DNA of 64,000 nt from an uncultured SAR116 cluster alpha proteobacterium (GTDB taxonomy: Bacteria; Pseudomonadota; Alphaproteobacteria; Puniceispirillales; Marisalimonadaceae), in assembly GCA_902528415.1 (NCBI GenBank), contig CABZSR010000006.1:1-64000 (forward strand), read 5' to 3'. The position numbers and the translations under genes are program-made. A model generated the notes under the pieces. It was not told the origin of the DNA, ran no database searches, and saw only the letters and a program-made list of their open reading frames with translations. Positions 8,917-46,398 of this stretch are shown here, one piece after another. The stretch's first letter is position 1, and every line of letters starts with the position of its first letter.

Positions 8917-8923
8917 GACTAAG

Positions 8924-10086: not shown

Positions 10087-10107
10087 ACTTTTAGAAGGAG
10101 ATAATTA

Positions 10108-10760: not shown

Positions 10761-10787
10761 ACACATTAATGAATAGTAAACTTTAAA

Positions 10788-11345: not shown

Positions 11346-11369
11346 AACAAAAAATTTAGGGATAGCTTA

Positions 11370-28985: not shown

Positions 28986-29783
28986 ATGGATATTATATTT
29001 AAATTGTTACTTCTTGTACCTGTTATAATAAGTTCATATTTTTTATTTATAAATATAGGAATTTTGTCAATTTTTCCGATTTGGCTTTTGTGCGGCTTAA
29101 TTGACGTTTCAAGACATAAAACAATGAATTTGAAATTAATTAAGGAGTATTTTTTAGGTAAAGGCTTTTTAACGTTTATCTTGTCTCCCTTAAACCTTTT
29201 TGCTGATTTGTTATCATTCAGAAATCTTCATACCTTTAAGCTAGAGGATCTTCCAATAGAACACCAAGACGAAATTAATGCTGTCGTTTCTTTATTTGAT
29301 AAGAATTCTAAAAAAATAACTGACAGATTTAAGGAAAATATTAATGATAATAGAACAATGTTATTTTACAAATGGTATGGCTATAGACTAGATGAGTCCA
29401 TAGACGAGTTTAATAATGATTATAAATATATAAAAACAATTGGAGTGTCTTTATTTAGGCAAAAGACCTCTACCTCAAGACATTTTGGCCCTTTGAGAAT
29501 GACTTATCGTATTTTGTATAATTTTAATAAAGTAAAAAAAGAAGGCTCTTACATAGAAGCTGATGGTCGAATAAACAAATGGAAATATGAACCATTATTT
29601 ATTTTTGATGATACTCTTATTCATCAAAGTTTTAACGAAGAAGAAAATTTGAGATATTGCGCATTCATTGACATTATAAGACCCTCACACTTTGATAATA
29701 TTATGAAATCAATTTTAACTGGTGTGGGTTTTTTATTAAAAAAAACAAGAAGTATTTTTTATAAAAACTGGAAAATGATTTAA
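28986..29783 (+). CDS. Membrane-anchored aspartyl/asparaginyl beta-hydroxylase-like dioxygenase
   Basis: An N-terminal membrane segment (about residues 3-40, perhaps two helices, plus a hydrophobic stretch 58-76) precedes a C-terminal domain resembling Fe(II)/2-oxoglutarate hydroxylases of the AspH/LpxO family. Likely iron ligands are His166 in SRHFGPLRMTYR and His213 in IFDDTLIHQSFNEE, with Arg223 as the 2-oxoglutarate binder, then FIDIIRPS. LpxO members hydroxylate the 2-position of lipid A acyl chains, so an envelope lipid target is plausible. The call is by motif only; the first iron ligand is less certain. It stands between divergent yajQ and the accessory dehydrogenase. Confidence 0.65.
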   Translation: MDIIFKLLLLVPVIISSYFLFINIGILSIFPIWLLCGLIDVSRHKTMNLKLIKEYFLGKGFLTFILSPLNLFADLLSFRNLHTFKLEDLPIEHQDEINAVVSLFDKNSKKITDRFKENINDNRTMLFYKWYGYRLDESIDEFNNDYKYIKTIGVSLFRQKTSTSRHFGPLRMTYRILYNFNKVKKEGSYIEADGRINKWKYEPLFIFDDTLIHQSFNEEENLRYCAFIDIIRPSHFDNIMKSILTGVGFLLKKTRSIFYKNWKMI

Positions 29784-29795: not shown

Positions 29796-30935
29796 TTAGG
29801 CATTAGGCATTAAAATTTGTCTAACCACCTCTCCCTTTGATAACTTATCAAAACCTTCATTTAAGTCATCAAATGTTATTTTCCCATCAATTAATTTATC
29901 TACTGGCAGACGTCCTTGTTGAAATAAATTCAAAAATCTAGGGACATCTCTAACTGGAACGCACGAACCCATGTAGCTGCCTAATATTGACTTTTCTTGA
30001 GCAACTAGATCACTGTGGTTAAAACTAAATTGAGTGTTTATTGGAGATAAACCTGCTGTAATAACTGATCCTCCATATCTAATGATTTGATATGCTGTGT
30101 TCATAGCCGGGATAACCCCTGCTAAATCAATTGCATAGTCAACACCTCCATTTGTTAATGCTCTAATCTCATCAATAGTGTCATTGTTTCTGCTATCAAA
30201 GCAATGTGTTGCGCCAAGCTCTTCTGCTCTACTAAATTTTGATGGGTCAATATCTACTGCAATAATAGTTTCTGCTCCCCCAAGTTTTGCACCTATTATA
30301 CCATTAAGTCCAACACCTCCTAAACCAATTATAGCTACTGAATCTCCTGGTCTAATTCTAGCCGTGTTTATTACTGCGCCCACCCCAGTCATAACAGCAC
30401 AGCCAAAAAGAGCTGCATCTTGAATATTAACAGATTTGTCTATTACAACTACAGATCCTCTATCGACAACGTTATATTGTGACATACATGAAATACCTGT
30501 ATGGTGATTAAGTTTATTTCCATCTAAGTCTGAAAGCCTGCTTCCTCCTGACATTAATTCACCTTTTCCTTTAGTAGCTGCTGCAAGCTCACAAACTTGA
30601 GGTCTACCCTCAAGGCATCTTCTGCACCTTCCACATGATGGGGAAAATTGAAAGGCCACATGATCTCCAACCTTTACATCTTTGATTGCACTTCCTAATT
30701 CAACCACTTCTCCCGAGCCTTCATGGCCAATCACTAGAGGTAAAGGCATAACTCTTGAGCCATTAATTACTGACAGATCTGAGTGGCACAATCCTGCTCC
30801 CATCACTTTTACAAGTATTTCATTCTCTAATGGAGGAGCAATTTTAATTTCCTCTATAGACAATGGTTTTGATTCTTTATAGGGCTCTGTTAATTTGTTA
30901 TCTCTAATAACTGCAGCTTTGCATGTAATTGACAT
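29796..30935 (-). CDS. Zinc-dependent alcohol dehydrogenase (nitrile hydratase operon, distal)
   Basis: A class III-like medium-chain dehydrogenase of 379 residues. Catalytic zinc ligands are Cys50 in GLCHSDLS and His71/Glu72 in IGHEGSGEVV; the structural zinc lobe is Cys101, Cys104, Cys107 and Cys115 (CGRCRRC and QVC). The NAD-binding motif is GLGGVGLNG near residue 206. It starts immediately after the nitrile hydratase activator stop, last of seven collinear genes. The substrate is unknown; an alcohol, aldehyde or S-hydroxymethyl adduct are all possible. Confidence 0.88.
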   Translation of the reverse strand: MSITCKAAVIRDNKLTEPYKESKPLSIEEIKIAPPLENEILVKVMGAGLCHSDLSVINGSRVMPLPLVIGHEGSGEVVELGSAIKDVKVGDHVAFQFSPSCGRCRRCLEGRPQVCELAAATKGKGELMSGGSRLSDLDGNKLNHHTGISCMSQYNVVDRGSVVVIDKSVNIQDAALFGCAVMTGVGAVINTARIRPGDSVAIIGLGGVGLNGIIGAKLGGAETIIAVDIDPSKFSRAEELGATHCFDSRNNDTIDEIRALTNGGVDYAIDLAGVIPAMNTAYQIIRYGGSVITAGLSPINTQFSFNHSDLVAQEKSILGSYMGSCVPVRDVPRFLNLFQQGRLPVDKLIDGKITFDDLNEGFDKLSKGEVVRQILMPNA

Positions 30936-31298
30936 TTAAATGCTCCTTTGTTTAATCTTTACCGGCTTACCATGAGGTGTTGACAGATAAGCGTTAGTCC
31001 AATCTTTTTTCAAAAGTGATAAAATATTTGAGTTTCCTAATTTCTTTGAAATAATAATTTCCTCAAGTGCGATCAGCCAACAGTTAAAATAATCATCATT
31101 ACCATCTAAACTATTTATTTCAAGCCTTGATTCATTCAGAGATTTTGCAAAAAATTTAACAAACTCCTTCCAGGAGAAGTTCCCTGTTTCTGATAATTGG
31201 ACTGTAATAGCAAACAACTGACTATGCCAAGGATTTTGAAAAACTACACCATCTTCTATTTTATTTGTAAATGGTAAAATATAATCAAAAGTGTTCAT
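30936..31298 (-). CDS. Nitrile hydratase accessory (activator) protein
   Basis: The 120-residue protein resembles the N-terminal part of nitrile hydratase beta subunits and the small P14K/NHase activator family: FQNPWHSQLFAITVQLSETGNFSWKEFVKFF near residues 20-50 and a conserved helix EEIIISKKLGN. Such proteins deliver cobalt to, or mature, the alpha subunit metal centre. The gene follows the beta subunit gene by 19 bases and is followed without spacer by a zinc dehydrogenase, so it lies within the operon. Confidence 0.85.
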   Translation of the reverse strand: MNTFDYILPFTNKIEDGVVFQNPWHSQLFAITVQLSETGNFSWKEFVKFFAKSLNESRLEINSLDGNDDYFNCWLIALEEIIISKKLGNSNILSLLKKDWTNAYLSTPHGKPVKIKQRSI

Positions 31299-31317
31299 TT
31301 TAATCTCAAATAAATCT

Positions 31318-32055
31318 TTAAGCTTTAATTTTAAGATAGGGTTCCCATAGATCTAAATAAATTTTATCGTTGCCATTTTCTGCTGCAAGCCCCCACAATT
31401 CAGATGCTTTAAACTCTACCGTATATAGAGGCAAAGGATTTTCTCCAATTCCATGCGCATTTTTATCAGGAAAAACGTGAGTGCCATTATAAGAAAATAT
31501 TTTCCCTTCACACCCCATTGCATACGAAGGTAAACGAGTATGACCACCTATAACATTTTCATTAGGATTATATTTCGTGGTTATCACACTATCGCCAATT
31601 TTATGTAAAGGGGTTATATCTGTTTTTCTAAGAGAAGGTCCACCCCACCCCAAAGTTTTTTGAACGTCCTTTGCTAGCCAAGTCCTTTCATCTAATTTAA
31701 CATTTTCTTTCAAATCTTCGGTTGAGTTATCTTCTTGCACTAAACTTATGAACTTCTTTAACTCTTCTATGGAAATCAATTTTTTGTCAACCAGAAGATT
31801 AGTAAGGCCGGCCAACCACTTTTCATAATATGAATAATTCATATAATCCTTTGGTGGCAGGCACTCTCTGTAGTGTCTGCTTACATCTAGGTTCCACTCA
31901 CCAAGTGCTCCAGCAGCGAGTGTTATAGCCCAAGCTTTTGCATGCCATTCATGTTTGAAAGTAGGCTCACTATTTTCAACCTGATTGTTTTTATTTCTAG
32001 GAACTGGTATAGGACCATCTCCATAGCGACCTCCCATATCATGAAGTCTACTCAT
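31318..32055 (-). CDS. Nitrile hydratase subunit beta
   Basis: The beta subunit pairs with alpha to form the nitrile hydratase active site, which adds water to nitriles to make amides. The family N-terminus [17 protein letters not shown] is clear. [24 protein letters not shown] is the barrel region that contacts the metal site, and [12 protein letters not shown] is the C-terminal strand. The 245-residue length is normal. It overlaps alpha by four bases (ATGA type), indicating co-translation. Confidence 0.94.
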
Positions 32056-32699
32056 TTTGAGTTCTCCGGTAAACCTGTTCCAATCATAGAGTTGCGCGTT
32101 ACTAACTCTGCTAACTGCTCTTCATTCATATTTTCCGTTCCGTCTGGTCTTATAGGTAAAACTAAATATCTCAATTCAGCAGTTGAGTCCCAAACTTTAA
32201 TTTCGATTTTTGAATCAATATTTAATCCAAATTCTGAAAGAACTTTTCTAGGTTCTCTTACTGTTCTAGATCTATATTCATCACTCTTATACCATGTTGG
32301 AGGAATACCTAATACTGGCCAGGGATAACAGCTACATAAAGTACAAACTACTACGTTATGAATATCTGCTGTATTCTCAACTACAACCATATTTTCGCCT
32401 TGCCTACCCTGATAACTCAACTCTCTAATGGCTGATGTGGCGTCATCAAGGAGTCTTTTTTTATAATTTTCGTCTACCCATGCCTTGGCTATCACTTTGG
32501 CACCATTTTGTGGGCCTATTCTATTTTCGTAAGTATCTATCAATTCATCTAAGGTTTTTGAGTCTATTAGCCCTTTGCTTAAAAGTAGTGTTTCAATTGC
32601 TTTTACTCTTAATTCCGGATCTGAAGGTAAGTGTGAATGTGCGTCATCTTTTTTATGACCTTGAACTCGATGCAGATTATGATCGTTATTTGAATTCAT
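32052..32699 (-). CDS. Nitrile hydratase subunit alpha (cobalt type)
   Basis: The alpha subunit holds the non-corrin cobalt or non-heme iron centre. The metal-binding sequence is [15 protein letters not shown] with Cys119, Cys122, Ser123 and Cys124. The Thr in CTLC marks the cobalt type; iron enzymes usually have [17 protein letters not shown] and [10 protein letters not shown] follow, as in the family. The 215-residue length is normal. A His-rich leader (residues 9-25) is short but noticeable. It lies 45 bases after the upstream dehydrogenase. Confidence 0.95.
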
Positions 32700-32744
32700 T
32701 TTATTTGCTCACGATTATTAATTTCTTACTTGGTTACATTAATT

Positions 32745-33791
32745 TTATTTAGGGACTAATACTATTCTACCATTGACTTTGCCAGCTCTAAGATCCGACA
32801 TAGCTTGATTTGCTGTTTCTAAATCTTGTTTTTTTACAGGTATAAGTTTAATTTTCCCTGATTTTATAATTTCTACTAATTCTTTTAATTCTCTCAATTC
32901 TCCAACATAAGAACCTCTTAAAGTAATTGATCTCATTGGTACTAAAGGCAAAGACATTTTAAGTGAACCACCATATAATCCAACAACAATGACCATTCCT
33001 CCTTTTTTTATAAGAGATAAGCCAAAGTCAGTTGTCTGAGGCATCCCTACAAAATCAATTGCTGCTACAGCGCCTATTCCTATAATTTTTCTAATTTTTT
33101 CTTCATCTTTAGGAGAAAAAGACTGATCAGCTCCAGCTTCAATTGCTTTTTCTCTTTTTTCTTTATCATTATCTATAACTAATATTTTTGCATTATGAAC
33201 AGCTGGGGATAATAAAATTCCATTTATACCTACCCCACCAGCTCCGATTATTATTATCCAATCGTCAACAGAAGTTTTTGGTATTTTTTTTAATGCACTA
33301 TATGCAGTTAAACCAGAACAGGCATATGGGGCAGCGACAGCTGGATCCATATCTCCGTAAGACACAAGATATTTGCTATCTGGAACAATTATATGATCTG
33401 AATACCCTCCGTTAAGGCGTGCTCCTAAATATTTGGGAGCTTCACATAAAGTTTCATTTTCTTTTTTACATGCTTCACATACTCCACACCCAATCCAAGG
33501 AAAAACAATCCCGCTATCTCCAATATTAACATCTTCTGCCTCTTCACCCATATCAACAACTGATCCTGTAATTTCATGTCCTGGTGTGAACGGTAGTTTT
33601 GTTCCTCTGTCAGCCAAAGTAATTCGCTTTCCATCACCAAGGTCAAAATAACCTTCAGATAAATGAATATCACTATGACAAACGCCGCAAGCGGAAATTT
33701 TTACAAGTATTTCTTTTCCCTGCGGTTTAGGGTTTTCATATTCTCTAAGTTCTAAAGGTTTCCCAAAATCTATGACTTGATAACTTTTCAT
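32745..33791 (-). CDS. Zinc-dependent alcohol dehydrogenase (nitrile hydratase operon, proximal)
   Basis: A medium-chain dehydrogenase of 348 residues, distinct from the distal one. Catalytic zinc ligands are Cys38 in CGVCHSDIH and His72/Glu73 in PGHEITGSVV; structural zinc cysteines are 102, 105, 108 and 116 (CGVCEAC and ETLC). The NAD-binding motif is GAGGVGINGI. YACSGLTAYSALKK resembles formaldehyde- and alcohol-converting members. It follows the lyase gene by 20 bases. The substrate is unknown. Confidence 0.88.
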   Translation of the reverse strand: MKSYQVIDFGKPLELREYENPKPQGKEILVKISACGVCHSDIHLSEGYFDLGDGKRITLADRGTKLPFTPGHEITGSVVDMGEEAEDVNIGDSGIVFPWIGCGVCEACKKENETLCEAPKYLGARLNGGYSDHIIVPDSKYLVSYGDMDPAVAAPYACSGLTAYSALKKIPKTSVDDWIIIIGAGGVGINGILLSPAVHNAKILVIDNDKEKREKAIEAGADQSFSPKDEEKIRKIIGIGAVAAIDFVGMPQTTDFGLSLIKKGGMVIVVGLYGGSLKMSLPLVPMRSITLRGSYVGELRELKELVEIIKSGKIKLIPVKKQDLETANQAMSDLRAGKVNGRIVLVPK

Positions 33792-33811
33792 TTATTATTC
33801 CCTAAAATAAA

Positions 33812-34693
33812 TTAATCTCTTTTAGAAGTTTCATAATTACTAGAAATTTCATAATAGTCGTCAAAACCAACTTTTTGCCTTAAGTCTTTAAAGTCTAATA
33901 AAAATTCAGACCTGTCTTCATCTTTCATCAAAAGATTTAGTGAGTTAGTCATAGCTTTCATAGCGGAACTCATAACTGTTAACGGATAAACTGCAAGCTT
34001 ATAACCTATATCTGCAAGCTCTGTCATAGGTAAATTTGGTGTAATACCACCTTCGACTATATTTGCTATTTTAAATCCTGGAACTTCTTTACAAATGGTT
34101 TTCATTTCATCTTTATTTTTGGGAGCTTCTACAAATAATATATCTGCACCTAATTCATAAAATTTCTGTGCTCTTGAAATAGATTCTTTCAATCCGTGTG
34201 TATGATTGGCATCTGTTCTTGCCATTATTAAAATATCATAGCCTTCACTTCTCATATCACTTGCAGCTCTAATTCGGTCAAAAGCTTCTTCTCTTTCAAC
34301 AACATCTTTACCTGGAGTATGGCCACATCTTTTTGGTGCCAATTGATCCTCAATTAAAATCCCTGCACATCCAGCTTTTGAACATTCTTTTAATGTTCTT
34401 CTCACATTCATTGCATTTCCATAACCAGTGTCACCATCAACTATCATAGGTATATTGATTGCATTACATATATTATTTGCTTGATCAAAAACTTCTGAAA
34501 AAGTCATAAGCCCAAGATCCGGGGAGCCTATTCTTGAAGCTGAAGCTGCAAATCCTGACATGAAAGTAACATCGAATTTCGCTTGCTCAATTAATTTAGC
34601 AGAAAGAGCGTCAAAACATGAAGGAATGGGAATAAAGTCTCTTTCGTTCATGAGAGTTCTTAAAATATCTGTTTGGCTTTTTTTTAAATTCAT
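33812..34693 (-). CDS. Isocitrate lyase/PEP mutase superfamily protein
   Basis: A TIM-barrel enzyme of 293 residues with the superfamily features: VDGDTGYGN (Asp87/Asp89, metal site), EDQLAPKRCGHTPGKDVV with the KRCGH active-site loop and Cys123, and MARTDANHTHGLKE. Members include 2-methylisocitrate lyase, 2,3-dimethylmalate lyase, oxaloacetate decarboxylase and PEP mutase. The KRCGH loop suggests C-C lyase or decarboxylase activity on a small 2- or 3-carbon-branched acid, but the substrate cannot be fixed. It lies 17 bases after the E1-like gene and 20 before the dehydrogenase gene. Confidence 0.8.
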   Translation of the reverse strand: MNLKKSQTDILRTLMNERDFIPIPSCFDALSAKLIEQAKFDVTFMSGFAASASRIGSPDLGLMTFSEVFDQANNICNAINIPMIVDGDTGYGNAMNVRRTLKECSKAGCAGILIEDQLAPKRCGHTPGKDVVEREEAFDRIRAASDMRSEGYDILIMARTDANHTHGLKESISRAQKFYELGADILFVEAPKNKDEMKTICKEVPGFKIANIVEGGITPNLPMTELADIGYKLAVYPLTVMSSAMKAMTNSLNLLMKDEDRSEFLLDFKDLRQKVGFDDYYEISSNYETSKRD

Positions 34694-34710
34694 ACGTTTG
34701 AGGATTTTAT

Positions 34711-36990
34711 TTAATTAAAACTAAACCCTAGGTTAGAAATACTTTGAGAGTCAATGGTAAACTCTTTAAAGAGATCTTCAACTTTTCCTGTTTGCCCAAA
34801 AGAAGAAACACCTAATGGGATAGTTTTATGGCCATTTATAGAACCTATCCAGGATAAAGTCATTGGATGACCATCGATAACTGTTATTATTCTTGTATCC
34901 CTTGGAACGCATTCTAGTAGTAATTCTATATGACTTGTACTATTTTGATTTTTCCATTCATGAAATAATTTATCAGAGCTTGTAATGCTTAGCACCCCTG
35001 AATTTTTAAATTTTTCACCTAACAAAGCTGTAGATTCTATTGCTTCAATTGCAATAGCTCCTTGATAAACAATAATAACTTCTGGATTTGGACCTGGCTT
35101 CTTTAACCAATAGCCTCCCTTGATAATATTATTTTTCAACTCTTTATCTATCTCTCTCATAGGCTGATCAATAGATCTGGTAGTTAATCTCAAGTAAATA
35201 GATCCACCAGCCTCGTCTTGGAGATAATTAAAACCATAATTCATAATTAAAGCTAGTTCATCTGCAAAAGCGGGTTCAAAACTTAAAAGTCCTGGCTGAC
35301 TTATACCAATTAAAGGTGTGCCAATGGACTGATGAGCTCCTCCTTCTGGAGCTAAAGAAATTCCTGATGGGGTCCCAACAATCATAAATCTAGCATCTTG
35401 ATAACAAGCATAATTCATTGCATCTAGTCCCCTAGATATGAAAGGGTCATATACTGTACCAATTGGAAATAACCTCTCACCAAAAAATTCATGAGAAAGT
35501 CCAGCTGCACCTAACATTAAAAAAAGGTTCATCTCAGCAATACCAAGTTCTATATGCTGTCCTTGAGAAGAAAATATCCATTTTTGAGCTGAAGGAATTT
35601 TTCTATCTTTAAAAGTATCTGAACTATCCTTTCTACTAAATAAACCTTTCCTATTTATCCAAGGACCTAAGTTAGTAGAAACAGAGACATCTGGAGAAGT
35701 TGTTAAAATTCTTTGACTAAAGTCAGTATTATTTTTTGCATATTGATCTAAAATTTTACCAAAGGCATTTTGCGTTGAAATTTTTGTTTCCTTAATAAAA
35801 ACGTTTTCATCAACTGATACTTTTTTACATTGATATTTTCTATGCTTTGCTTTTTGAAATGGTAGATTTTTAATATATTTATCCAATTCAACATTATTTT
35901 TTTCATCAGAAAATCTATTCCATTCATCCCCATCAGAAATACCATACTTTAATTTAAAACTATTCATTTGGGCTTTGGTCATCAATCCTGCATGATTATC
36001 TTTATGACCAGCTAAAGGTGTACCCCATCCTTTGATTGTATAGGCAATGAAAGCTGTTGGTTTATCATCTTTTACTTTTTCAAAAACTTTAATCAATGTT
36101 TGGACACAATGACCGCCTAAGTTAGCCATTAAATCTAGAAACTCGCTATCTGTTCTTTTATTTATTAATTCCGAAACAATATCCTGATCGCCAATATCAT
36201 CCAATATTCTTTGCTTAAAAGTAGAACCACCTTCATAAATTAAGGCTGAATAGAGCTGATTTGGACAATCATCAATCCATTTTTTTAATAAATGACCACC
36301 TGGTTCATCAAATGCTTCTTTTTGCAATTTACCATATTTTAAAATAATGAGATTCCAGCCAAAAGCTTCAAAAACAGAACCTAAACGCTCAGATAATCCT
36401 TCATGAACTACTCCGTCTAATGATTGTCTATTATAATCTATTATCCACCAAACATTTCTTAAGTCATGTTTCCATCCTTCTTGAAGACATTCATAAACAT
36501 TACCTTCGTCAAGCTCAGCATCTCCAACTAACGCAATCATCCTTCCTTGAGGTATTTTTTTTCCAAACTGTTTTCTTGAAACATATTCCTGTATAAGTGA
36601 AACAAAGCTGGTCATCGCTACACCTAGCCCAACCGAACCTGTTGAAATGTCAACATCATCAATATCTTTTGTTCTAGAAGGATATGACTGAGCACCTCCA
36701 AAACCTCTAAAATTTTCAATATTTTCTCTAGTTTGCAACCCAGACAAATACTGAATCGCATGAAATACTGGACTAGCGTGTGGTTTTACAGCAACTCTAT
36801 CTTCTGGTCTTAAAATGTTAAAATATAATGCTGTCATTATTGAAACAATTGAGGCAGAACTAGCCTGATGACCTCCTACTTTTAAACCATCTTCATTATT
36901 CCTAAGATGGTTAGCATTATGTATCATCCAACAAGAAAGCCATAAAACCTTCTTCTCAATAATTTTCAATAATTTATTTTTATTTAACAT
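34711..36990 (-). CDS. Transketolase-like / pyruvate dehydrogenase E1-like TPP enzyme
   Basis: A thiamine diphosphate enzyme of 759 residues. The N-terminal domain has GGHQASSASIVSIMTALYF, then the TPP/Mg site GDAELDEGNVYEC, in which GDA replaces the usual GDG, and IDYNRQSLDG. The middle and C-terminal transketolase domains show ELGIAEMNLFLMLGAAGLSH and a final GVSSFGQTG. AceE is longer, near 890 residues, so this belongs to the shorter E1-like family annotated as transketolase-like. No E2 or E3 genes are nearby. It is the first gene of the putative operon, divergent from an Lrp/AsnC regulator. Confidence 0.72.
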   Translation of the reverse strand: MLNKNKLLKIIEKKVLWLSCWMIHNANHLRNNEDGLKVGGHQASSASIVSIMTALYFNILRPEDRVAVKPHASPVFHAIQYLSGLQTRENIENFRGFGGAQSYPSRTKDIDDVDISTGSVGLGVAMTSFVSLIQEYVSRKQFGKKIPQGRMIALVGDAELDEGNVYECLQEGWKHDLRNVWWIIDYNRQSLDGVVHEGLSERLGSVFEAFGWNLIILKYGKLQKEAFDEPGGHLLKKWIDDCPNQLYSALIYEGGSTFKQRILDDIGDQDIVSELINKRTDSEFLDLMANLGGHCVQTLIKVFEKVKDDKPTAFIAYTIKGWGTPLAGHKDNHAGLMTKAQMNSFKLKYGISDGDEWNRFSDEKNNVELDKYIKNLPFQKAKHRKYQCKKVSVDENVFIKETKISTQNAFGKILDQYAKNNTDFSQRILTTSPDVSVSTNLGPWINRKGLFSRKDSSDTFKDRKIPSAQKWIFSSQGQHIELGIAEMNLFLMLGAAGLSHEFFGERLFPIGTVYDPFISRGLDAMNYACYQDARFMIVGTPSGISLAPEGGAHQSIGTPLIGISQPGLLSFEPAFADELALIMNYGFNYLQDEAGGSIYLRLTTRSIDQPMREIDKELKNNIIKGGYWLKKPGPNPEVIIVYQGAIAIEAIESTALLGEKFKNSGVLSITSSDKLFHEWKNQNSTSHIELLLECVPRDTRIITVIDGHPMTLSWIGSINGHKTIPLGVSSFGQTGKVEDLFKEFTIDSQSISNLGFSFN

Positions 36991-37113
36991 TTGAAAAAGT
37001 CTAACACTTTATTAATGAAATAAATGACTAAAGATAACAATTTTACTTTCAATTTTAGTATAATATGCTAATATAAAATTTTTTATAAAATATTTTACTT
37101 TAAAGAGGGTCTT
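36991..37113. promoter_or_regulatory. Divergent promoter region of the E1-like operon and lrp gene
   Basis: An AT-rich 123-base region between the divergent E1-like gene and the Lrp gene. A TATAAT is at 37059-37064 on the plus strand, but no clear -35 box at normal spacing. The GAGGG ribosome site of the Lrp gene is near 37105-37109. Lrp/AsnC proteins commonly bind such divergent regions, including their own. Confidence 0.35.
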
Positions 37114-37581
37114 TTGGGCAATATTGATAGAATAGACCAAAAAATAATATTTTTTCTTCAAAAGGACGGTCGATTAACAAATTTTGATTTAGCTGAAAAG
37201 GTAGGTCTATCTCCATCACCTTGTTTAAGAAGAGTAAAAAGTTTAGAACAAAAAGGTTTAATTGCTGGCTATACTGCAATTATAGATGAAGTATCTTATG
37301 GGTATCCAGTAACAGCATTTGTTTCTGTAAGACTAGAAAATCAAACTGATCAAATCCTAAAGTCATTCGAAAAAGAAATCACATCTTTGGACGCTGTTAT
37401 GGATTGTTGGTTGGTAACAGGAAATAGAGATTATTTACTTAGAGTAGTAGCATCAGACTTAAAAAATTATGAGATTTTTATGAGAGAAGAATTGACTAAA
37501 GTAAAAGGGATTGCTTCTATCGAAACAAACTTTGCTCTAGGTAGAGTTAAAACTAAAAACAACCTACCTTTAAACTCATAA
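37114..37581 (+). CDS. Lrp/AsnC family transcriptional regulator
   Basis: The 155-residue protein has the AsnC-type helix-turn-helix at residues 8-60 (LQKDGRLTNFDLAEKVGLSPSPCLRRVKSLEQKG, split here by position), followed by the RAM ligand-binding domain (YPVTAFVSVRLE, then VTGNRDYLLRVVASD). Lrp proteins respond to amino acids or related small molecules. The start is TTG after an AAAGAGGG site. Its position opposite the E1-like operon makes it the natural candidate regulator. Confidence 0.92.
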   Translation: MGNIDRIDQKIIFFLQKDGRLTNFDLAEKVGLSPSPCLRRVKSLEQKGLIAGYTAIIDEVSYGYPVTAFVSVRLENQTDQILKSFEKEITSLDAVMDCWLVTGNRDYLLRVVASDLKNYEIFMREELTKVKGIASIETNFALGRVKTKNNLPLNS

Positions 37582-37602: not shown

Positions 37603-38502
37603 TTGATTGCAGATTTAAAACAAATAAAAGCTGGAGATCTAAATGTAAGCTATTTTGAAACAGGTCCAATAGATGGCGTTCCCGTAATCCTACTGCATGG
37701 TTTTCCTTATGATATTCATTCATACCTTGAAGTGGTCCCTGTTTTATCAAATGCTAGATGTAGAGTAATTGTGCCTTATCTAAGGGGTTATGGAAAAACT
37801 TCATTCTTAGCAAAAAAAACTTTAAGATCTGGTCAACAAGCTGCACTGGGATACGATTTATTAAATTTAATGAATTCAATTAAAATAGATAAAGCCATCT
37901 TAGCTGGCTATGATTGGGGAGGTAGGGCGGCGTGTGTAGTTGCTGCTCTTTACCCAGAAAGATGTATAGGATTAATCTCCTGTAATGGCTATAATATTCA
38001 AGATATAAAAAATTCTTCAAAACCCTCAAATCCAAATACTGAGCAAAAATTATGGTATCAGTACTTTTTTCATAGTGAAAGAGGTCGTTTGGGCTTAATA
38101 AACAGGCGTCATGATTTTATAAAATATCTCTGGCAAACATGGTCACCTTCTTGGGATTTTAATGATGAAATATATGGTTTAAGCAAAAACTCATTTGATA
38201 ATTCTGATTTTGTAGATGTGGTTGTGCATAGCTACAAACATAGATTTGGTATAGTTGCTGGAGATCCAAAATTTAATCTAATTGAAAAAGACTTATCTAA
38301 ACAACCCACAATTTCAGTTCCAAGTATAACTATTGACGGTGAAACTGACGGCGTTTCAGGGTTGTCTAATATTACTAAAATTAAACAAAAATTCTCCTCT
38401 CACGTTAGACATCAAATTCTACCAAACACGGGACATAATGTACCTCAAGAGGATCCTAAAAATTTTTCTAAAGCTGTTCTAGAATTAGCATTTGTTAATT
38501 AA
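37603..38502 (+). CDS. Alpha/beta hydrolase with Asp nucleophile (epoxide hydrolase/dehalogenase-like)
   Basis: A 299-residue alpha/beta hydrolase. The nucleophile elbow is GYDWGG, placing Asp104 where esterases have Ser, as in epoxide hydrolases and haloalkane or haloacetate dehalogenases. LLHGFPYDIHSY is the oxyanion region with HGFP, a likely acid is in DGETDG, and the catalytic His is in PNTGHNVPQEDP. It starts with TTG 21 bases after the Lrp gene, with no good ribosome site, so the start is uncertain. The substrate is not known. Confidence 0.8.
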   Translation: MIADLKQIKAGDLNVSYFETGPIDGVPVILLHGFPYDIHSYLEVVPVLSNARCRVIVPYLRGYGKTSFLAKKTLRSGQQAALGYDLLNLMNSIKIDKAILAGYDWGGRAACVVAALYPERCIGLISCNGYNIQDIKNSSKPSNPNTEQKLWYQYFFHSERGRLGLINRRHDFIKYLWQTWSPSWDFNDEIYGLSKNSFDNSDFVDVVVHSYKHRFGIVAGDPKFNLIEKDLSKQPTISVPSITIDGETDGVSGLSNITKIKQKFSSHVRHQILPNTGHNVPQEDPKNFSKAVLELAFVN

Positions 38503-38505
38503 CAT

Positions 38506-39720
38506 TTATGAATTAGCTATTTGAAGAGGTATACCAAACTCCTTCTGACATATTTCGGCTAAAATTTTTACCCCCTCATCAATTTCTTCTATTGACGGAT
38601 TACCAAAACAAAGTCGAATTTTATGATCTCCACTAGAGTTAATCGACCATTCATTTCCAGGATTTATCGCGACATTGTCTTTTAATGCAAGTTCGTATAA
38701 GCGTGATGTATCCACATTATTAGGTAAATTAATCCACACAAAAATTCCACCAACAGGTTTATTATAATCTGCTGTAGAGCCAAAGTATTTATCTAACGCA
38801 TTGCATATGGCGTCTGACTTTTTTTTAAGTTCATTTCTAAGTTTTTTTATATGGGAATCAAAATTAATTTTACAAAACTCTGCAAGTGCCATTTGCTCCA
38901 ATGATCCACTTCCGGCATCAGTTTTATAAGGGAGTATTCTTGATAAAATACTCCAATCAGCTGTTAAGTATCCCACCCTTAACGCCGGTGCTATAGATTT
39001 TGAAAAAGAGCCACAATATATTACATAACCATCATTATCATAAGATTTTATTGCTGGAGGCCTTTCTTTATCAAAAATAAGATCCGCATAACAATCATCT
39101 TCAAAAATTGGCATTTCAAATTTTTTAGATAATTTTATTAGAGCTTTTCTTTTATCCACAGACATAATAGTGCCTGTTGGATTCTGAATTGTTGGAATAG
39201 TGTAAATAAATCTTGGTCTGATTTTCTTTTTCTTAAGACTTTCTAAGGTTTGTTCTAAAGCCTCAATATTCATTCCATCTTTTTCCAATGGAATACCTAT
39301 CATATTAACGCCTATCCTTCTAAGCCTTGAAATAGTGCCACCATAATTTTCTTCTTCGATTATAACTGTGTCGCCTTTTTTTAAAAATGTTTGATTTACT
39401 AGGTCTAATGCCTGCAACGATCCAGAAACGACTAACAACTCTTTTTCAGAACAGTTAATGCTCGCACTTTTTTTTAATTGTTTTGAAATGAATTGCCTGA
39501 GTGGCAGATATCCCTGGGGACCACTTTCCAATCCATATTTGGCTAATGTTTTTCCCTCTTTTAAAATTATTTTATCTATAGATTCTTTTAAGGATGTAAT
39601 TGGTATGCTTTCATTATCATTATGCCCACCAATAAAGTTAAACTTTGGATAACCCTTCCATTCAATCGCTGGTCCTAAAGCATCTGAGTGTAAAAAACTA
39701 TTAATATTAAACATATTCAC
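38506..39720 (-). CDS. PLP-dependent aminotransferase (class I/II, MocR/LysN-like)
   Basis: A fold-type I aminotransferase of 404 residues. The Schiff-base lysine is in YCGSFSKSIAPALRVGY, near residue 239, with TIPTIQNPTGTIMS, FEDDCYADLIFD and the C-terminal KIRLCFGNP as further family motifs. It resembles 2-aminoadipate aminotransferases (LysN) and the aminotransferase domain of MocR proteins, but lacks the GntR-type DNA-binding domain. Substrate preference is not determined. It converges on the preceding hydrolase with three bases between. Confidence 0.85.
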   Translation of the reverse strand: MNMFNINSFLHSDALGPAIEWKGYPKFNFIGGHNDNESIPITSLKESIDKIILKEGKTLAKYGLESGPQGYLPLRQFISKQLKKSASINCSEKELLVVSGSLQALDLVNQTFLKKGDTVIIEEENYGGTISRLRRIGVNMIGIPLEKDGMNIEALEQTLESLKKKKIRPRFIYTIPTIQNPTGTIMSVDKRKALIKLSKKFEMPIFEDDCYADLIFDKERPPAIKSYDNDGYVIYCGSFSKSIAPALRVGYLTADWSILSRILPYKTDAGSGSLEQMALAEFCKINFDSHIKKLRNELKKKSDAICNALDKYFGSTADYNKPVGGIFVWINLPNNVDTSRLYELALKDNVAINPGNEWSINSSGDHKIRLCFGNPSIEEIDEGVKILAEICQKEFGIPLQIANS

Positions 39721-41041: not shown

Positions 41042-41818
41042 CTAACCGGCCTTTTCAATATTTCCACAAACACTTACAGCCTGACCAGATATATTCTTCC
41101 CTAAAGGACTACACAAAAAATGCGCTTGTTCAGCTAAATCATCATGTGTAACAAACCTGTTAAGAGACGCACCCGACAAAATTTCATCTTTCATATCATC
41201 AAAAGAAATATTTTTAACTTTGGCTTTTGCTTCTATTACTCGATTTTGTCTTTCACCCTCCACAATCCCAGGCAAAAGAGCATTAGCCCTAATACCCCTA
41301 GGGCCCAATTCAATAGCTAAGCTTTTAACCATCCCTATCACAGCCCACTTTGTTGCTGCATAAGGCAACCGGTATGCAAAACCAACTCTTCCTGCAACTG
41401 ATGAAACTGAAAGGATAGATCCTTCATCATTCATACGAGGAACAATTAATCTCATAGTTTCAAAATGACTAGTTATATTTACCTGAAGACACTCTTGCCA
41501 TCCACCCAAAGTTTGATCGCCAACCCCAGCAGTCTCACCAGCTATTCCTGCATTGTTAACTATTATGTCAACTTCTTTTAAATAATCAAAACCTGCCTCA
41601 ACCATAGATGCAATTATTTGAGTTTGCCTTAAGTCACATAGCATTGCTTTAATATTATCATCAACATCGTTGACTTTATTGACTGCATCTTCATTGATAT
41701 CGCAGACAAATACTTTCGCACCAGCCTTATCAAATCTTTTAGCTATTGCATATCCTATCCCGTCAGCACCAGCAGTTATTAATGCCTTCTTGCCTTCAAG
41801 CAGTCTTTCATAGTTCAT
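41042..41818 (-). CDS. SDR family oxidoreductase
   Basis: A classical short-chain dehydrogenase of 258 residues. The cofactor motif is TAGADGIGYAIAK near residue 16, NNAGIAG follows, and the catalytic set is Ser in SVSSVAGRVG with the Tyr-Lys pair in YAATKWAV. The cofactor tail shows CDINEDAVNK, suggesting NAD use. It is last in the unit dehydrogenase-BKACE-SDR and may reduce or oxidise a hydroxy acid from that pathway, such as acetoacetate/3-hydroxybutyrate. Substrate is unproven. Confidence 0.85.
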   Translation of the reverse strand: MNYERLLEGKKALITAGADGIGYAIAKRFDKAGAKVFVCDINEDAVNKVNDVDDNIKAMLCDLRQTQIIASMVEAGFDYLKEVDIIVNNAGIAGETAGVGDQTLGGWQECLQVNITSHFETMRLIVPRMNDEGSILSVSSVAGRVGFAYRLPYAATKWAVIGMVKSLAIELGPRGIRANALLPGIVEGERQNRVIEAKAKVKNISFDDMKDEILSGASLNRFVTHDDLAEQAHFLCSPLGKNISGQAVSVCGNIEKAG

Positions 41819-41829
41819 ATTTTTACTTT

Positions 41830-42768
41830 CTAATTAATGTTAGTTTTATCCTTACCTTTAAGTCCTAACATTTCTCTTGCTTCATCTGAGGTAGCAACTT
41901 CTAACGAGAGACCTTCAAGTAGATCTCTAACTCTCTTAACTTGATCTGCATTTGTTTTTGCAAGTTTACCTGGCCCGTCCCATAAAGAATCTTCAAGACC
42001 AACACGAACGTGCGAGCCCAGTGAAGCACCTGTTGCATTCATCTTCATTTGAGTTGCACCAGCGCCTACAACAGACCACTCATAACCTACATCGCCAAAG
42101 AGCTTATCTGCAGTTTTCTTCATATGTAATAAATTATCTACATCTGAGCCTATTCCACCCATTATCCCCATTACAAATTGAATAAAGTAGGGCCCTTTCA
42201 GCATCCCTTCTCTATGGAAATGATGTAAATTATACAAATGACCAACATCATAACATTCAAACTCAAACCTAGTGCCATTTTCATAACCAAGTGTCATAAT
42301 ATTTTCTATATCTTCAAACGTATTTCTAAAAAGTGAATGCTTACTTCTTTCAAGCATTTCTGTTTCCCATTTATGTTTAAATTGATTATGTCTTTTAAGC
42401 ATTGGAAAAAGACCAAAATTCATTGATCCCATATTTAATGAAGCAAGCTCTGGTTTAAAGTGCATAGCCGGTTTCATTCTTTCCTCCACAGTCATCTGTG
42501 GGCCTCCACCAGTTGTTATATTTATAACAGCATCACACGAGCTTTGTATAGTTGGAAGAAACTTTTGAAACTCATCAGGATCTTGGGTTGGATGTCCGTC
42601 AACCTCATCCCTTGCGTGAAGATGAAGAACAGCTGCGCCCGCTTCATGAGCTGCCAAAGAATGCTCAATAACTTCTTCAGCTGTTACTGGCAAATACTCT
42701 GACATTGAAGGTGTATGTATTGCTCCAGTCACTGCACAACTTATAATTACTTTTTTATTTTTAGCCAT
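41830..42768 (-). CDS. BKACE beta-keto acid cleavage enzyme (DUF849)
   Basis: BKACE enzymes cleave a beta-keto acid with acetyl-CoA to give acetoacetate and an acyl-CoA; the founder acts on 3-keto-5-aminohexanoate, and others act on dehydrocarnitine. The fold is a zinc TIM barrel. His49 and His51 in LHLHARDEVDGHPTQDP are the likely zinc ligands; TGGGPQMTVEERM and the DSLWDGPGKLAKTNADQV end are typical. The ATG at 42768 has an AGGA site and overlaps the dehydrogenase gene by eight bases; an earlier start at 42792 would overlap more. Length is 312 residues. Confidence 0.88.
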   Translation of the reverse strand: MAKNKKVIISCAVTGAIHTPSMSEYLPVTAEEVIEHSLAAHEAGAAVLHLHARDEVDGHPTQDPDEFQKFLPTIQSSCDAVINITTGGGPQMTVEERMKPAMHFKPELASLNMGSMNFGLFPMLKRHNQFKHKWETEMLERSKHSLFRNTFEDIENIMTLGYENGTRFEFECYDVGHLYNLHHFHREGMLKGPYFIQFVMGIMGGIGSDVDNLLHMKKTADKLFGDVGYEWSVVGAGATQMKMNATGASLGSHVRVGLEDSLWDGPGKLAKTNADQVKRVRDLLEGLSLEVATSDEAREMLGLKGKDKTNIN

Positions 42769-43705
42769 CGTGAATGTCCTCTCTAAGTTCAAGTTTTAAC
42801 TTTCTAATTAATGCAATCATCTTATTTCTTTTTTCTATTCTATTTGATCTTTCAGAATAAGATAATCTCTTTCTTTGCTCATTTTCTAATTTATTTAAAT
42901 AATTTTCAGAGTATTCAGGTACACTATTTTGTTCTCTTGCTAAATTTTGTATACCACTCTTATACCTAGAAAAAGAGTCTTTAATGCCTTCTGGGGCATT
43001 CAAATCCATTATTTCGAAGGGGCCCATAAATGCCCACCTTATTCCTAGTGCATGTTTTAAGGCTATATCTATATCTTCCATCGAAGCATAACCTCCCTCA
43101 TGTAAACGAACAGCTTCGTTTAGTAATGCTCCTTGTAACCTATTTAAAACAAAACCCTCAGTCTCTTTATTAACTACTATTGCTGCGTAGTTAGCTTTTT
43201 TGTATAAGTTAATTGCTTTTCGAACTATTTCATTAGAAGTATAATTACTACCAACAACTTCAACAAAAGGAACAACGTGAGGTGGCAGAGCTGGGTGGGC
43301 ATTTATACATCTATGTTTATGTTCAACATATTCTGATATCTTAGAAATAAGAAGATAAGAAGATGAAGATGCTAAAATAGTGTTTTTAGGAGATAACCTG
43401 TCTAATTCTTTGAAGATTTGCTGTTTTGCATTTAAATCCTCAATTATGCTTTCTTGGATTAAAAGAACGTCTTTACATATTTCGTTAATTGTACAATTAA
43501 GAATAATATTTGATTTGATTTGGTTTACATCAATTTTGGGTTCTAGTATCTTTAAATCTAAAAGTAATTGATCAGATGTTTTTTCAAATTTTTTAATACT
43601 TTCCTGATTTGAATCATAGACAAGACATTTAAATCCTGCATTTGCAAAACCAATTGCCCAACTTGCACCGATTAGACCGGCACCACAAATACCAACATTC
43701 TTCAT
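42761..43705 (-). CDS. 3-hydroxyacyl-CoA dehydrogenase family protein (lambda-crystallin/L-gulonate 3-dehydrogenase-like)
   Basis: A Rossmann dehydrogenase of 314 residues. NAD motif GICGAGLIGASWAIGFANAG is at residues 5-24; ILASSSSYLLIS and RCINAHPALPPHVVPFVEVV hold the catalytic His region, and EGFVLNRLQGALLNEAVRL is the dimer part. The C-terminal half (GIRWAFMGPFEIMDLNAPEG) resembles lambda-crystallin (CRYL1), which oxidises L-gulonate, and related carnitine dehydrogenases. Such enzymes make a 3-keto acid, which BKACE, the next gene, can cleave. The start codon lies only 12 bases after a terminator-like U-run. Confidence 0.85.
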   Translation of the reverse strand: MKNVGICGAGLIGASWAIGFANAGFKCLVYDSNQESIKKFEKTSDQLLLDLKILEPKIDVNQIKSNIILNCTINEICKDVLLIQESIIEDLNAKQQIFKELDRLSPKNTILASSSSYLLISKISEYVEHKHRCINAHPALPPHVVPFVEVVGSNYTSNEIVRKAINLYKKANYAAIVVNKETEGFVLNRLQGALLNEAVRLHEGGYASMEDIDIALKHALGIRWAFMGPFEIMDLNAPEGIKDSFSRYKSGIQNLAREQNSVPEYSENYLNKLENEQRKRLSYSERSNRIEKRNKMIALIRKLKLELREDIHDG

Positions 43706-43716
43706 CTTTTAAACCT

Positions 43717-43748
43717 AAAAAAAACCGCATCAAATTGATGCGGTTTTT
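43717..43748 (-). terminator. Hairpin terminator/attenuator between dctM and the dehydrogenase
   Basis: On the minus strand, just after the dctM stop, AAAAACCGCATC-type sequence forms a stem whose arms are AACCGCATCAA and TTGATGCGGTT (plus-strand 43723-43733 and 43735-43745), extended by A-T pairs, then eight U from A43717-43724. This is a strong intrinsic terminator. The 3' end of the U-run is 12 bases from the next start codon, so any transcript of the downstream genes from upstream must read through it. Confidence 0.8.
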
Positions 43749-43757
43749 AAAATTAAT

Positions 43758-45149
43758 TTAAATTAGCCGCGGAAGCCACAATCCCATTTCAGGTTGGCTT
43801 ATAACTAAGCCAAGGCCAATTAATTGGATTATAACAAATGGTATTACACCTTTATAAATACTTAGTGTAGCGACCTCAGGTGGGGCAACACCTTTTAAGT
43901 AAAATAAAGCAAATCCAAATGGTGGTGTTAAGAATGACGTCTGAAGATTTATCGCCATTAATACCAAAAACCAAACCATTGTCTCTTTCCGTCCATCAAG
44001 ACCAGTAAGCTGAGTTACATGATCACCAAAGTCTAATAAGACAACTAATGGAGCGAAAATAGGAAGAATTATTAGTGTAATCTCAACCCAATCTAAGAAA
44101 AACCCAAGCAAGAATGTCATACCCATAAGTAAAAATAATAGGCCCCAAGACCCAAGACCTGCTTTTTCTATTAATTCTTCAACAATGTAATCACCTCCAA
44201 GTGATCTAAACACATAAGCAAAACATGTTGCACTCAGGATAATCATAAAAACCATAGAAATAGTTAGACCTGAAGAATGAAGAACACTTCTTAACATAGG
44301 AAAAGTAAACTTATTACCTATTATAGCCAGCAATGTTGCACCAAACGCACCAACCGCTCCAGCTTCACTTGGTGTAGCCCAACCTAATAGAATTGAACCT
44401 TTTATTAGTGTGATTAATGCTACTGGTGGAAGAAAAGCTTTAAGAACCATAGAAGGCAATTTTCCTTTTTCATAAACAAGGTCTCCCTCTTTCAGAGCTG
44501 GAGCAACTGTTTTATCAATTGAACACCACACAAAAATAAATATTAAATACATCAATGCTAGTGTTAATCCTGGAATAACGGCACCCATAAATAAGTTACC
44601 AACTGAAACCTGCATAATATCAGCCATGATAATCAACATAATACTTGGGGGAATAAGAATTCCCAAAGTACCCGACGCAGCAATTACTCCTGTTGAAAGT
44701 GCATGACTATATTTATTTTTCAACATTGTAGGTAAAGCCAATGCAGTCATCATAGTCACAGAAGCACCGATAATGCCTGTCATTGCAGCGAGAACTGTTC
44801 CCATTACCGTAACTGACATTGCCAATCCACCAGGAACTTTCCTGAGTAAAATTTGAGTAGTCCTTAATAGATCATTAGCAATACCACTTCTTTCCATCAT
44901 AGTTCCCATAAAAACAAAACTTGGTATCGCAACTAAAATTAGGTTTTCTGCAGAAAATCCCCACATCCGAGGCACGAAGTTGAAAAATTCTGCTATTTTA
45001 AAAACGCCAAATAAATATCCTATAAATCCATAGGTGATCGCTACACCACCCAGTATGAAGCCAACTGGGTAACCTATAAATAAAAGTACTCCCATAGTCA
45101 GAAACATAAATATTGGTAGGTACTCAATTATAATTTCAACAAAATCCAT
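43758..45149 (-). CDS. dctM: TRAP transporter large permease subunit
   Basis: DctM is the large membrane subunit of tripartite ATP-independent periplasmic transporters, which import organic acids with Na+. The 463-residue protein has about 12 hydrophobic helices, and family motifs LAMSVTVMGTVLAAMTGIIGASVTMM, ASGTLGILIPPSIMLIIMADIMQ and FLLGFFLDWVEITLIILPIFAPL are visible (each partly quoted). Substrate specificity comes from DctP. It follows the extra membrane gene by eight bases and is followed by a hairpin. Confidence 0.92.
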   Translation of the reverse strand: MDFVEIIIEYLPIFMFLTMGVLLFIGYPVGFILGGVAITYGFIGYLFGVFKIAEFFNFVPRMWGFSAENLILVAIPSFVFMGTMMERSGIANDLLRTTQILLRKVPGGLAMSVTVMGTVLAAMTGIIGASVTMMTALALPTMLKNKYSHALSTGVIAASGTLGILIPPSIMLIIMADIMQVSVGNLFMGAVIPGLTLALMYLIFIFVWCSIDKTVAPALKEGDLVYEKGKLPSMVLKAFLPPVALITLIKGSILLGWATPSEAGAVGAFGATLLAIIGNKFTFPMLRSVLHSSGLTISMVFMIILSATCFAYVFRSLGGDYIVEELIEKAGLGSWGLLFLLMGMTFLLGFFLDWVEITLIILPIFAPLVVLLDFGDHVTQLTGLDGRKETMVWFLVLMAINLQTSFLTPPFGFALFYLKGVAPPEVATLSIYKGVIPFVIIQLIGLGLVISQPEMGLWLPRLI

Positions 45150-45157
45150 AACCGCTC

Positions 45158-45631
45158 CTATGCTTTCTTTTTATTATTACCTATTTTAAAATCACCATTA
45201 TACCTCTGCCATGCAACTATTCTTGATACTCTCCATCCATATTTTAAAGACAAAAGAAAAAGACAAATAAAAATAGTTAAAGTTAGAAAAGATGAACTAT
45301 TTTTAAGTCCCTCAAAAATACAGAAAACAATAATACCTGCAGGTGCTAAAGATATAATGTAAGAAGCAATTAATTCATATTTTCTCATAACAGAGAAAAT
45401 TGAGTAAATCACCACAACTGACAAAACCAACCATCCCAAATATATTGGGTTATTATTTTCAAAAAATGTTAGAATAGCTGCTAAACCTATAATACCGTAT
45501 AAACTTCCAGTAAAAACTCCATAAGCAGCTAGTTCATATTGTGATTGAGCTAAAGTAAGATCTTTCGCTTCTGTTAAGTAAGGTGTTTTTCGCTTATCAA
45601 AAATATAACCTGGAATCTTAGAGAACCACAT
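45158..45631 (-). CDS. Extra small membrane protein in the TRAP operon
   Basis: A 157-residue protein with about four hydrophobic helices (approximately residues 35-58, 63-84, 90-108 and 113-130), a short N-terminal tail MWFSKIPGYIFDKRK and a basic C-terminus. It lies between dctQ and dctM, where canonical TRAP operons have nothing. It is not recognised as a DctQ paralogue by length or pattern, but that could be a diverged one. Likely co-expressed with the transporter; possibly a subunit or stabiliser. Confidence 0.6.
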   Translation of the reverse strand: MWFSKIPGYIFDKRKTPYLTEAKDLTLAQSQYELAAYGVFTGSLYGIIGLAAILTFFENNNPIYLGWLVLSVVVIYSIFSVMRKYELIASYIISLAPAGIIVFCIFEGLKNSSSFLTLTIFICLFLLSLKYGWRVSRIVAWQRYNGDFKIGNNKKKA

Positions 45632-45662
45632 AACTTAACTCACAATTCTTAATGAAATTAAT

Positions 45663-46274
45663 TTATTTCTTTTCATCATAATCCAGAACCATTAAATCAA
45701 GCCGTTTTTTGTTATCACCCCAAATTACAGCTATAAGCTGTATCATGACTGACATTCCACCAAGGAATAAAAAGAAGTATCCTATTGGAAGAAACGTTTT
45801 AATAATCCATCTATTACTTAAACCAACTAATGAGGCAGAAACTTCTCCAATTTGATATGAGTCAACCATATAAATCCACGAAAAATAAACACAAATTAAT
45901 GTAAAAGGTAACATAAACAATAAATTACCATAAAATTCAACTTTAGCTTTCGACTGGAAATTAAAATTTTCACGAAGAAAATCAACTCTTACATGTCTAT
46001 TATGTGTGTAACCATATCCTAAAACCATACAAAAAACTACTGTATGTAAATGCCATTCCATTTCTTGCATTAATGTTGATTCAAAGAAAGAACCAAAATT
46101 GGCAACCATAAAAATTTGTATCCAAACTAATTTTCTAGCAACCACATCCCACATTGTTATTATAACTAAGGGAACCAATAGCCATGTACTAGCTCTTCCA
46201 GCTCTGTTGACGATTTCTCGTATTTTTTCACTGATAGAAACTAAACCCTGCATATTTTGTTCAGTTAATGCCAT
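45663..46274 (-). CDS. dctQ: TRAP transporter small permease subunit
   Basis: DctQ is the small four-helix membrane subunit of TRAP transporters. The 203-residue protein has four hydrophobic helices, with the segments RASTWLLVPLVIITMWDVVAR, EMEWHLHTVVFCMVLGYGYTHNRHVRVDFLRENF and FLPIGYFFLFLGGMSVMIQL, given by position. The conserved HLHTVVF...HNRHVRVD block is typical of TakP-type small subunits. It follows dctP after a terminator and lies 31 bases before the extra membrane gene. Confidence 0.9.
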   Translation of the reverse strand: MALTEQNMQGLVSISEKIREIVNRAGRASTWLLVPLVIITMWDVVARKLVWIQIFMVANFGSFFESTLMQEMEWHLHTVVFCMVLGYGYTHNRHVRVDFLRENFNFQSKAKVEFYGNLLFMLPFTLICVYFSWIYMVDSYQIGEVSASLVGLSNRWIIKTFLPIGYFFLFLGGMSVMIQLIAVIWGDNKKRLDLMVLDYDEKK

Positions 46275-46350
46275 TATCCCCCTCCAAAATTTATCTAATT
46301 AATAAATAATTAACTTATTAAAGGTGATATTTCAATAAATTTATCTAGAC

Positions 46351-46385
46351 AAAAAAAAGTACACCTATTTTACAATAGGTGTACT
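46351..46385 (-). terminator. Intrinsic terminator after dctP
   Basis: On the minus strand, 14 bases after the dctP stop, a perfect 12-base-pair stem (AGTACACCTATT at 46358-46369 with AATAGGTGTACT at 46374-46385, four-base loop) is followed by eight U (A46351-46358). This is a textbook intrinsic terminator. It lies between dctP and dctQ and would make dctP transcript more abundant than the membrane-subunit transcript, as expected for a binding protein. Confidence 0.9.
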
Positions 46386-46398
46386 CAGTATTTAAATA

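Follow-up and report, generated by a model that had tools for sequence, protein, structure and literature searches.

A predicted cobalt-type nitrile hydratase between two alcohol dehydrogenases in a conserved gene cluster of SAR116-type bacteria

Positions 29,796 to 36,990 of a 64,000-nucleotide stretch of DNA (contig CABZSR010000006.1, from an uncultured SAR116 cluster alphaproteobacterium; hereafter the window) carry seven open reading frames (ORFs) on the minus strand. Pfam and NCBIfam assign these to an E1-like enzyme, a lyase, two zinc alcohol dehydrogenases (ADH1 and ADH2), the alpha and beta subunits of a nitrile hydratase (NHase) and an NHase activator. A regulatory gene of the Lrp/AsnC type lies divergently upstream. 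The features are:

34711..36990, minus strand: thiamine-type E1/transketolase-like enzyme (E1), 759 aa, assigned by Pfam/NCBIfam; MdeB-like, going by the gene neighbours in other alphaproteobacteria
33812..34693, minus strand: lyase of the isocitrate lyase/PEP mutase family with a KRCGH motif; member of an insert, not of the core
32745..33791, minus strand: ADH1, a zinc alcohol dehydrogenase whose top-scoring solved structure is 2eer, an NAD-dependent alcohol dehydrogenase of archaeal origin
32052..32699, minus strand: NHase alpha, predicted cobalt-type, CTLCSC
31318..32055, minus strand: NHase beta; P. putida-aligned residues and GHTR motif kept
30936..31298, minus strand: NHase activator (accessory protein)
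29796..30935, minus strand: ADH2, a zinc alcohol dehydrogenase whose top-scoring solved structures are alcohol dehydrogenases of class I and class III
37056..37070, minus strand: candidate Lrp box in the gap between the Lrp and E1 genes
37114..37581, plus strand: Lrp/AsnC regulator (Lrp), divergent from the operon
37603..38502, plus strand: alpha/beta hydrolase, after Lrp
38506..39720, minus strand: class I/II aminotransferase, convergent neighbour

The first-pass annotation of this DNA had described a cluster of seven minus-strand genes, at most 45 bases apart and partly overlapping. The ORF positions bear this out, with gaps of 17 (E1 to lyase), 20 (lyase to ADH1), 45 (ADH1 to alpha), −4 (alpha to beta), 19 (beta to activator) and 0 bases (activator to ADH2). 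A scan for promoter and terminator consensus sequences gave matches at chance level only. The window lies on contig 6 of the host genome, which measures 1.72 Mb and is 73% complete. Its family is SAR116-type and includes SCGC AAA536-G10 (L031), whose NHase alpha is 99% identical to that of the window.

All three NHase proteins exceeded the NCBI equivalog cut-offs. The scores were 308.3 bits for alpha (cut-off 249.85), 207.4 bits for beta (cut-off 152.2) and 74.5 bits for the activator (TIGR03889, cut-off 46). The CTLCSC motif, which we take to mark cobalt-type NHases, was present in 41 of 41 family alphas. Residues R52, E56, Y68, Y69 and W72 (P. putida numbering) and the GHTR motif, whose roles we take as given, were kept in all 40 family betas found. 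The prediction of a cobalt-type nitrile hydratase, made in the first-pass annotation, is thus supported. We considered a thiocyanate hydrolase instead and rejected it; the profile for the gamma subunit (TIGR03887) scored 189.2 bits against a cut-off of 291.45. Position 71 of beta, K in the window and H in P. putida, was also rejected as a sign of an altered substrate, because K occurs in 15 of 37 other betas.

We next compared 41 family loci. These comprise 29 from named records, assigned to the family by matches to the window's genes rather than by taxonomy, and every NHase locus found in two further genera (12). Counted among the family loci is L049, a 3.2 kb contig labelled Lewinella that is probably mis-binned. 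E1, ADH1, alpha, beta, activator and ADH2 follow one another in that order in all 39 loci whose contig reaches E1 (the ADH2 match of L052 is partial), a linkage far beyond chance. The order from ADH1 to ADH2 is kept in four genera, across which NHase beta identity falls to ~50%. Hence the comparison of gene order in relatives, which the first-pass annotation had proposed, finds the linkage conserved.

The core order was found both with and without inserted genes. In 14 of the 41 loci, the arrangement is E1-DctPQM-lyase-ADH1-alpha-beta-activator-ADH2. A further 12 have the lyase and lack the transporter, as in the window, and 13 read E1-ADH1-alpha-beta-activator-ADH2; the remaining 2 are cut by contig ends. 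Six of the seven window genes form the core, because the lyase is in only 26 of the 39 loci reaching E1. The conserved core is therefore E1-ADH1-NHase-activator-ADH2 with divergent Lrp, and the lyase is outside it. The earlier view of seven genes as one unit holds for these six. Similarly, of the carbon–carbon bond and alcohol/aldehyde enzymes named as partners of the NHase, E1 and both ADHs are core and the carbon–carbon lyase belongs to the insert. Lrp is divergent in 34 of 34 family loci that reach its position, and five others end less than 50 bases from E1. The aminotransferase is present in 33 of 34 relatives (the single miss has just 342 bases left on its contig) and the alpha/beta hydrolase in 25 of 34. 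NHase alpha was detected in 42 of 58 family genomes and, across the order, in 82 of 136. All 6 family genomes with a completeness of 90% or more and a contamination of 5% or less have it.

The neighbours of NHase genes were surveyed at the best 80 of 101 NHase loci (29 family loci and 51 others). A gene of the ADH1 or ADH2 type lay within 5 kb of alpha at 29 of 29 family loci and at none of the 51 others, several of which have short flanks. Two of the latter (L091 and L108) have a weak ADH match more than 7 kb away. Using tblastn with five amidase examples, no amidase was found within 5 kb of the NHase at any of the 29 family loci. Among the 51 others, 14 have an amidase-signature gene within that distance, which is a lower bound because of the short flanks and the five examples used; at the limited sensitivity of this search none was detected in 37. 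The first-pass annotation had taken nitrile operons to pair the hydratase usually with an amidase, an aldoxime dehydratase or a cobalt importer. By this count, lack of a nearby amidase is not rare; the ADH flanks are the special feature of the family. This is an NHase context that we had not encountered before, built from component enzymes of known kinds. Judged by titles and abstract openings, none of the papers listed for NHase in SAR116, SAR202, bacterioplankton or marine operons is evidently on this operon.

Two further NHase loci may be described here. At L182 (5757-11397; G270), NHase alpha adjoins a 157-aa protein of the NHase-beta-N type and a 97-aa ORF, perhaps as a three-subunit NHase. 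MetX-like and FmdA-like genes are also present, together with a gene that by eye looks like a molybdopterin oxidoreductase. L189 (G481) has two NHase-alpha-like frames at ~8100-11400, of ~330 aa each and longer than usual; two such matches occur in four genomes of the genus.

The absence of an amidase, as first annotated, is correct for the operon and incorrect for the genome, where six amidase-signature genes are encoded elsewhere. An NCBI amidase cut-off is exceeded by one of the six, the GatA cut-off by none. Nine relatives gave 6–11 amidase-signature matches each, or 5–10 genes after split matches were joined. Across the host genome and these relatives, 5–10 genes per genome seems many for small genomes. 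The best matches in the nine relatives, in frames of 488–498 aa, may be GatA. With amidase genes elsewhere in the genome, a second step in trans could carry the amide made from a nitrile on to the acid. Neither an FmdA-type amidase nor an aldoxime dehydratase (PF13816) was found in ten family genomes; for the latter, control genomes likewise gave no match. ORFs of ~130 aa beside four of the amidases were rejected as a common partner, since three of them belong to different families and one has no match.

The first-pass annotation had also raised a role in handling cyanohydrins or hydroxynitriles, and the aldehyde and alcohol enzymes flanking the NHase fit this idea. Aldehydes made by E1 would combine with HCN to give cyanohydrins, the NHase would convert these to 2-hydroxyamides and an ADH would oxidise the products. 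We consider this quite improbable; no specific support turned up, although no search was aimed at hydroxynitrile lyase or cyanide-producing genes.

The insert varies among the family loci. Of the 39 loci reaching E1, 14 have DctPQM and the lyase placed between E1 and ADH1. Another 13 have neither, among them every one of the 11 E1-reaching loci from two of the four genera, and the window's own operon is without a TRAP transporter. The window lyase scored 253 bits with the methylisocitrate lyase (PrpB) profile TIGR02317, below the cut-off of 354.4. Among solved structures it is nearest to petal death protein, followed by a protein named as a phosphorylmutase, dimethylmalate lyase and methylisocitrate lyases. 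In G438, from the same order, DctPQM-lyase lies near Lrp-E1. Separately, AceE-type E1, DctP, DctQ, DctM and lyase form one string (L203 7204-13596) in G155, a genome of 1.2 Mb on a single contig; in this string a TRAP-lyase module is tied to a 2-oxoacid E1. DctPQM and the lyase have the appearance of a separate module.

These arrangements would suit an operon for hydroxyacids and 2-oxoacids, in which a malate-like acid enters through the TRAP transporter and is split by the lyase, the resulting 2-oxoacid is used by E1 and the NHase is peripheral. The 14 loci with the full insert, and the strings in G155 and G438, all point that way. However, the 13 loci without transporter and lyase still keep E1-ADH1-NHase-ADH2, and the window has no transporter to do the importing. 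Since the insert is missing from all 11 E1-reaching loci of two genera, a lyase-based pathway is not the conserved function. We regard a hydroxyacid operon as improbable.

The E1 enzyme scored 170.7 bits with the profile for homodimeric pyruvate dehydrogenase E1 (aceE, TIGR00759), below the cut-off of 859.9. An E1 match of some kind was obtained in 356 of 385 alphaproteobacterial genomes. Relatives at 49–65% identity occur in 131 of the 385 besides the window's own, some of them fragmented (manual count). We inspected 20 loci of these closer relatives. Fourteen have a divergent Lrp gene no more than 3 kb away. In 4, E1 is directly preceded by a gamma-lyase-type gene, and a fifth locus has a partial match there. 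The one such neighbour tested passes the NCBI methionine gamma-lyase cut-off. An annotated Sulfitobacter plasmid has the arrangement Lrp / methionine gamma-lyase / E1, and a Mesorhizobium plasmid has Lrp and E1 and no methionine gamma-lyase. In P. putida, mdeR-mdeA-mdeB is a methionine gamma-lyase locus, and MdeB acts on 2-oxobutyrate; the Sulfitobacter plasmid has the same layout. An excerpt of PMC10256816 places aceE/mdeB and mdeA in methionine catabolism. No protein in ten family genomes exceeded the methionine gamma-lyase cut-off (TIGR01328; best 262.7 against 549.7 bits) and there is none in the operon. Therefore, the supply of substrate to E1 has probably changed.

Alignment of E1 with E. 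coli AceE starts at AceE residue 93, and the GIxE glutamate and the GDx...N stretch are kept. The N-terminus of AceE binds E2. E2-type genes number 1–2 per genome in ten genomes. Given these gene numbers and an E1 that aligns only from AceE residue 93 onwards, release of a free aldehyde by E1 is plausible.

The consensus for E. coli Lrp is YAGHAWATTWTDCTR (an excerpt of PMC5554404). The 64 kb window has one perfect match to this E. coli sequence, where 0.09 are expected, and it falls at 37056-37070 in the gap between Lrp and E1. Among 35 such gaps, including the window's, the best sites comprise 4 perfect, 19 one-mismatch and 12 two-mismatch matches. Thus, 23 of 35 real gaps have a site with at most one mismatch, compared with 2.1% of base-shuffled gaps. 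These statistics support an Lrp box and do not prove it, because the gaps are related and the position of the site varies. The suggestion in the first-pass annotation that the divergent Lrp makes an amino-acid-like signal plausible is strengthened, both by the consensus box and by the linkage through four genera.

We tentatively prefer the possibility that the operon is catabolic, is controlled by Lrp and serves compounds that derive from amino acids by loss of one carbon, with a route from 2-oxoacid to aldehyde plus a nitrile branch. An amino acid would first be converted to its 2-oxoacid, perhaps by the linked aminotransferase. The MdeB-like thiamine enzyme would then remove CO2 to leave an aldehyde, or an acyl group if E2 were borrowed, and ADH1 and ADH2 would interconvert aldehyde and alcohol. 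The cobalt NHase would hydrate the matching nitrile to an amide, which an amidase encoded elsewhere would turn into the acid. Lrp would read the amino-acid signal and bind the box between its own gene and E1. In favour of this reading are the core order kept with and without the insert, the linked Lrp and aminotransferase, the consensus box, the Lrp and gamma-lyase neighbours of E1 relatives, the AceE alignment of E1, the ADH flanks confined to the family and the amidase-signature genes elsewhere. Here we infer co-transcription, Lrp binding, all substrates, an aldehyde as the E1 product and one shared pathway.

NHase genes related to those of the window are also found outside the Alphaproteobacteria. 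Five Chloroflexota records (L038-L042, two labelled SAR202) have an NHase alpha 84–87% identical to the window's, together with beta and activator. No other operon genes were found on their flanks, one of which is shorter than 1.5 kb in three of the records. In trees of chosen representatives (40 rows for alpha, 37 for beta) the Chloroflexota NHase falls inside the window's genus, with support of 99/96 and 100/99. The tree positions suggest that the NHase unit most likely moved alone, across phyla, from the window's genus outwards to SAR202. NHase as phage cargo was rejected as an explanation for this spread; no relative was present in viral_contigs (pattern-based scan) or phages.

The main rival of our preferred reading is that the NHase genes merely share a promoter with their neighbours. 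An independent nitrile-scavenging unit would then sit within an mde-derived 2-oxoacid operon, co-regulated and with no single pathway. The five Chloroflexota records, nested in the genus and free of other operon genes, are consistent with this. So too is the DctPQM-lyase cassette, which apparently joined the same operon and was then partly lost. Moreover, other SAR116 genomes have the NHase elsewhere, for instance beside an amidase-looking gene (by eye) or an FmdA-like gene (under cut-off). Conversely, a mere sharing of promoters fits poorly with an ADH1-alpha-beta-activator-ADH2 order kept through four genera, and we judge it somewhat unlikely.

Several observations weigh against a one-carbon-shortening pathway. 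In the SAR202 records the NHase occurs without the operon partners, so it does not need them and may, in the operon, only share a promoter; entry of other genes into the operon is possible too, as the DctPQM-lyase insert demonstrates. Two mismatches are needed in 12 of the 35 gaps, and some members of the genus have their best Lrp site at a different position. Lrp was not found at 6 of the 20 loci of E1 relatives. Methionine gamma-lyase is the evident partner of related E1s, where they have any, yet stays below cut-off in all ten family genomes. Around relatives of ADH1 and ADH2 elsewhere, nothing pointed to a pathway (12 loci, with nine neighbour proteins of three loci typed). Finally, the substrates proposed above are putative for every enzyme.

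One extension of the amino-acid reading is a long shot. From an amino acid, hypobromite and haloperoxidase chemistry can produce a nitrile and an aldehyde with one carbon fewer, and bromoperoxidase yields both. The operon might salvage amino acids damaged in this way in seawater. The nitrile would go to the NHase, the aldehyde to the two ADHs and the 2-oxoacid leading to the same aldehyde to E1, and Lrp would sense the parent amino acid. Amino acids have reportedly been converted to nitriles by vanadium chloroperoxidase, to go by the title of But et al. 2012 (cited in PMC13054786). None of the papers listed for nitriles, haloperoxidases, amino acids and seawater is apparently on such salvage, judged by titles and abstract openings. 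If salvage were true, plankton would have a pathway devoted to nitriles of algal or abiotic origin, and the nitrile part of this pathway would have spread across phyla to SAR202.

To our knowledge, no natural substrate of nitrile hydratases has been established in the open sea. In an uncultured marine family, the operon links an NHase with a regulator of the Lrp type and with enzymes acting on 2-oxoacids and aldehydes, and it thereby points to candidate substrates that can be tested. That the NHase genes apparently spread alone to SAR202 suggests that nitrile use is of value in the sea.

Two other regions of the window were noted. An aspartyl/asparaginyl beta-hydroxylase-like gene at 28986-29783 is convergent to ADH2 and present in those family loci that reach that far. 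A block at 41042-47499 encodes a short-chain dehydrogenase/reductase (SDR), a beta-keto acid cleavage enzyme, a 3-hydroxyacyl-CoA-dehydrogenase-fold protein, DctM and DctP; we take it to resemble a carnitine-type catabolic cluster.

The locus can be set beside three known systems. As in cobalt-type NHase operons (nthA-nthB-activator), the alpha-beta-activator order, the passing scores, the CTLCSC motif and the beta residues are all kept; the window NHase differs in being flanked by two zinc ADHs and E1, with a divergent Lrp and no adjacent amidase. With the mde locus (mdeR-mdeA-mdeB), it shares the divergent Lrp and an E1 subfamily whose members adjoin methionine gamma-lyase in some genomes, whereas the window operon has an NHase and ADHs in place of that lyase. 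The Ehrlich pathway leads from amino acid to 2-oxoacid, aldehyde and alcohol. Its enzyme types, an aminotransferase, a thiamine-type 2-oxoacid enzyme and an ADH, are linked in the window, but here the thiamine enzyme is of the AceE/MdeB type, a nitrile branch is added and the activities are predicted.

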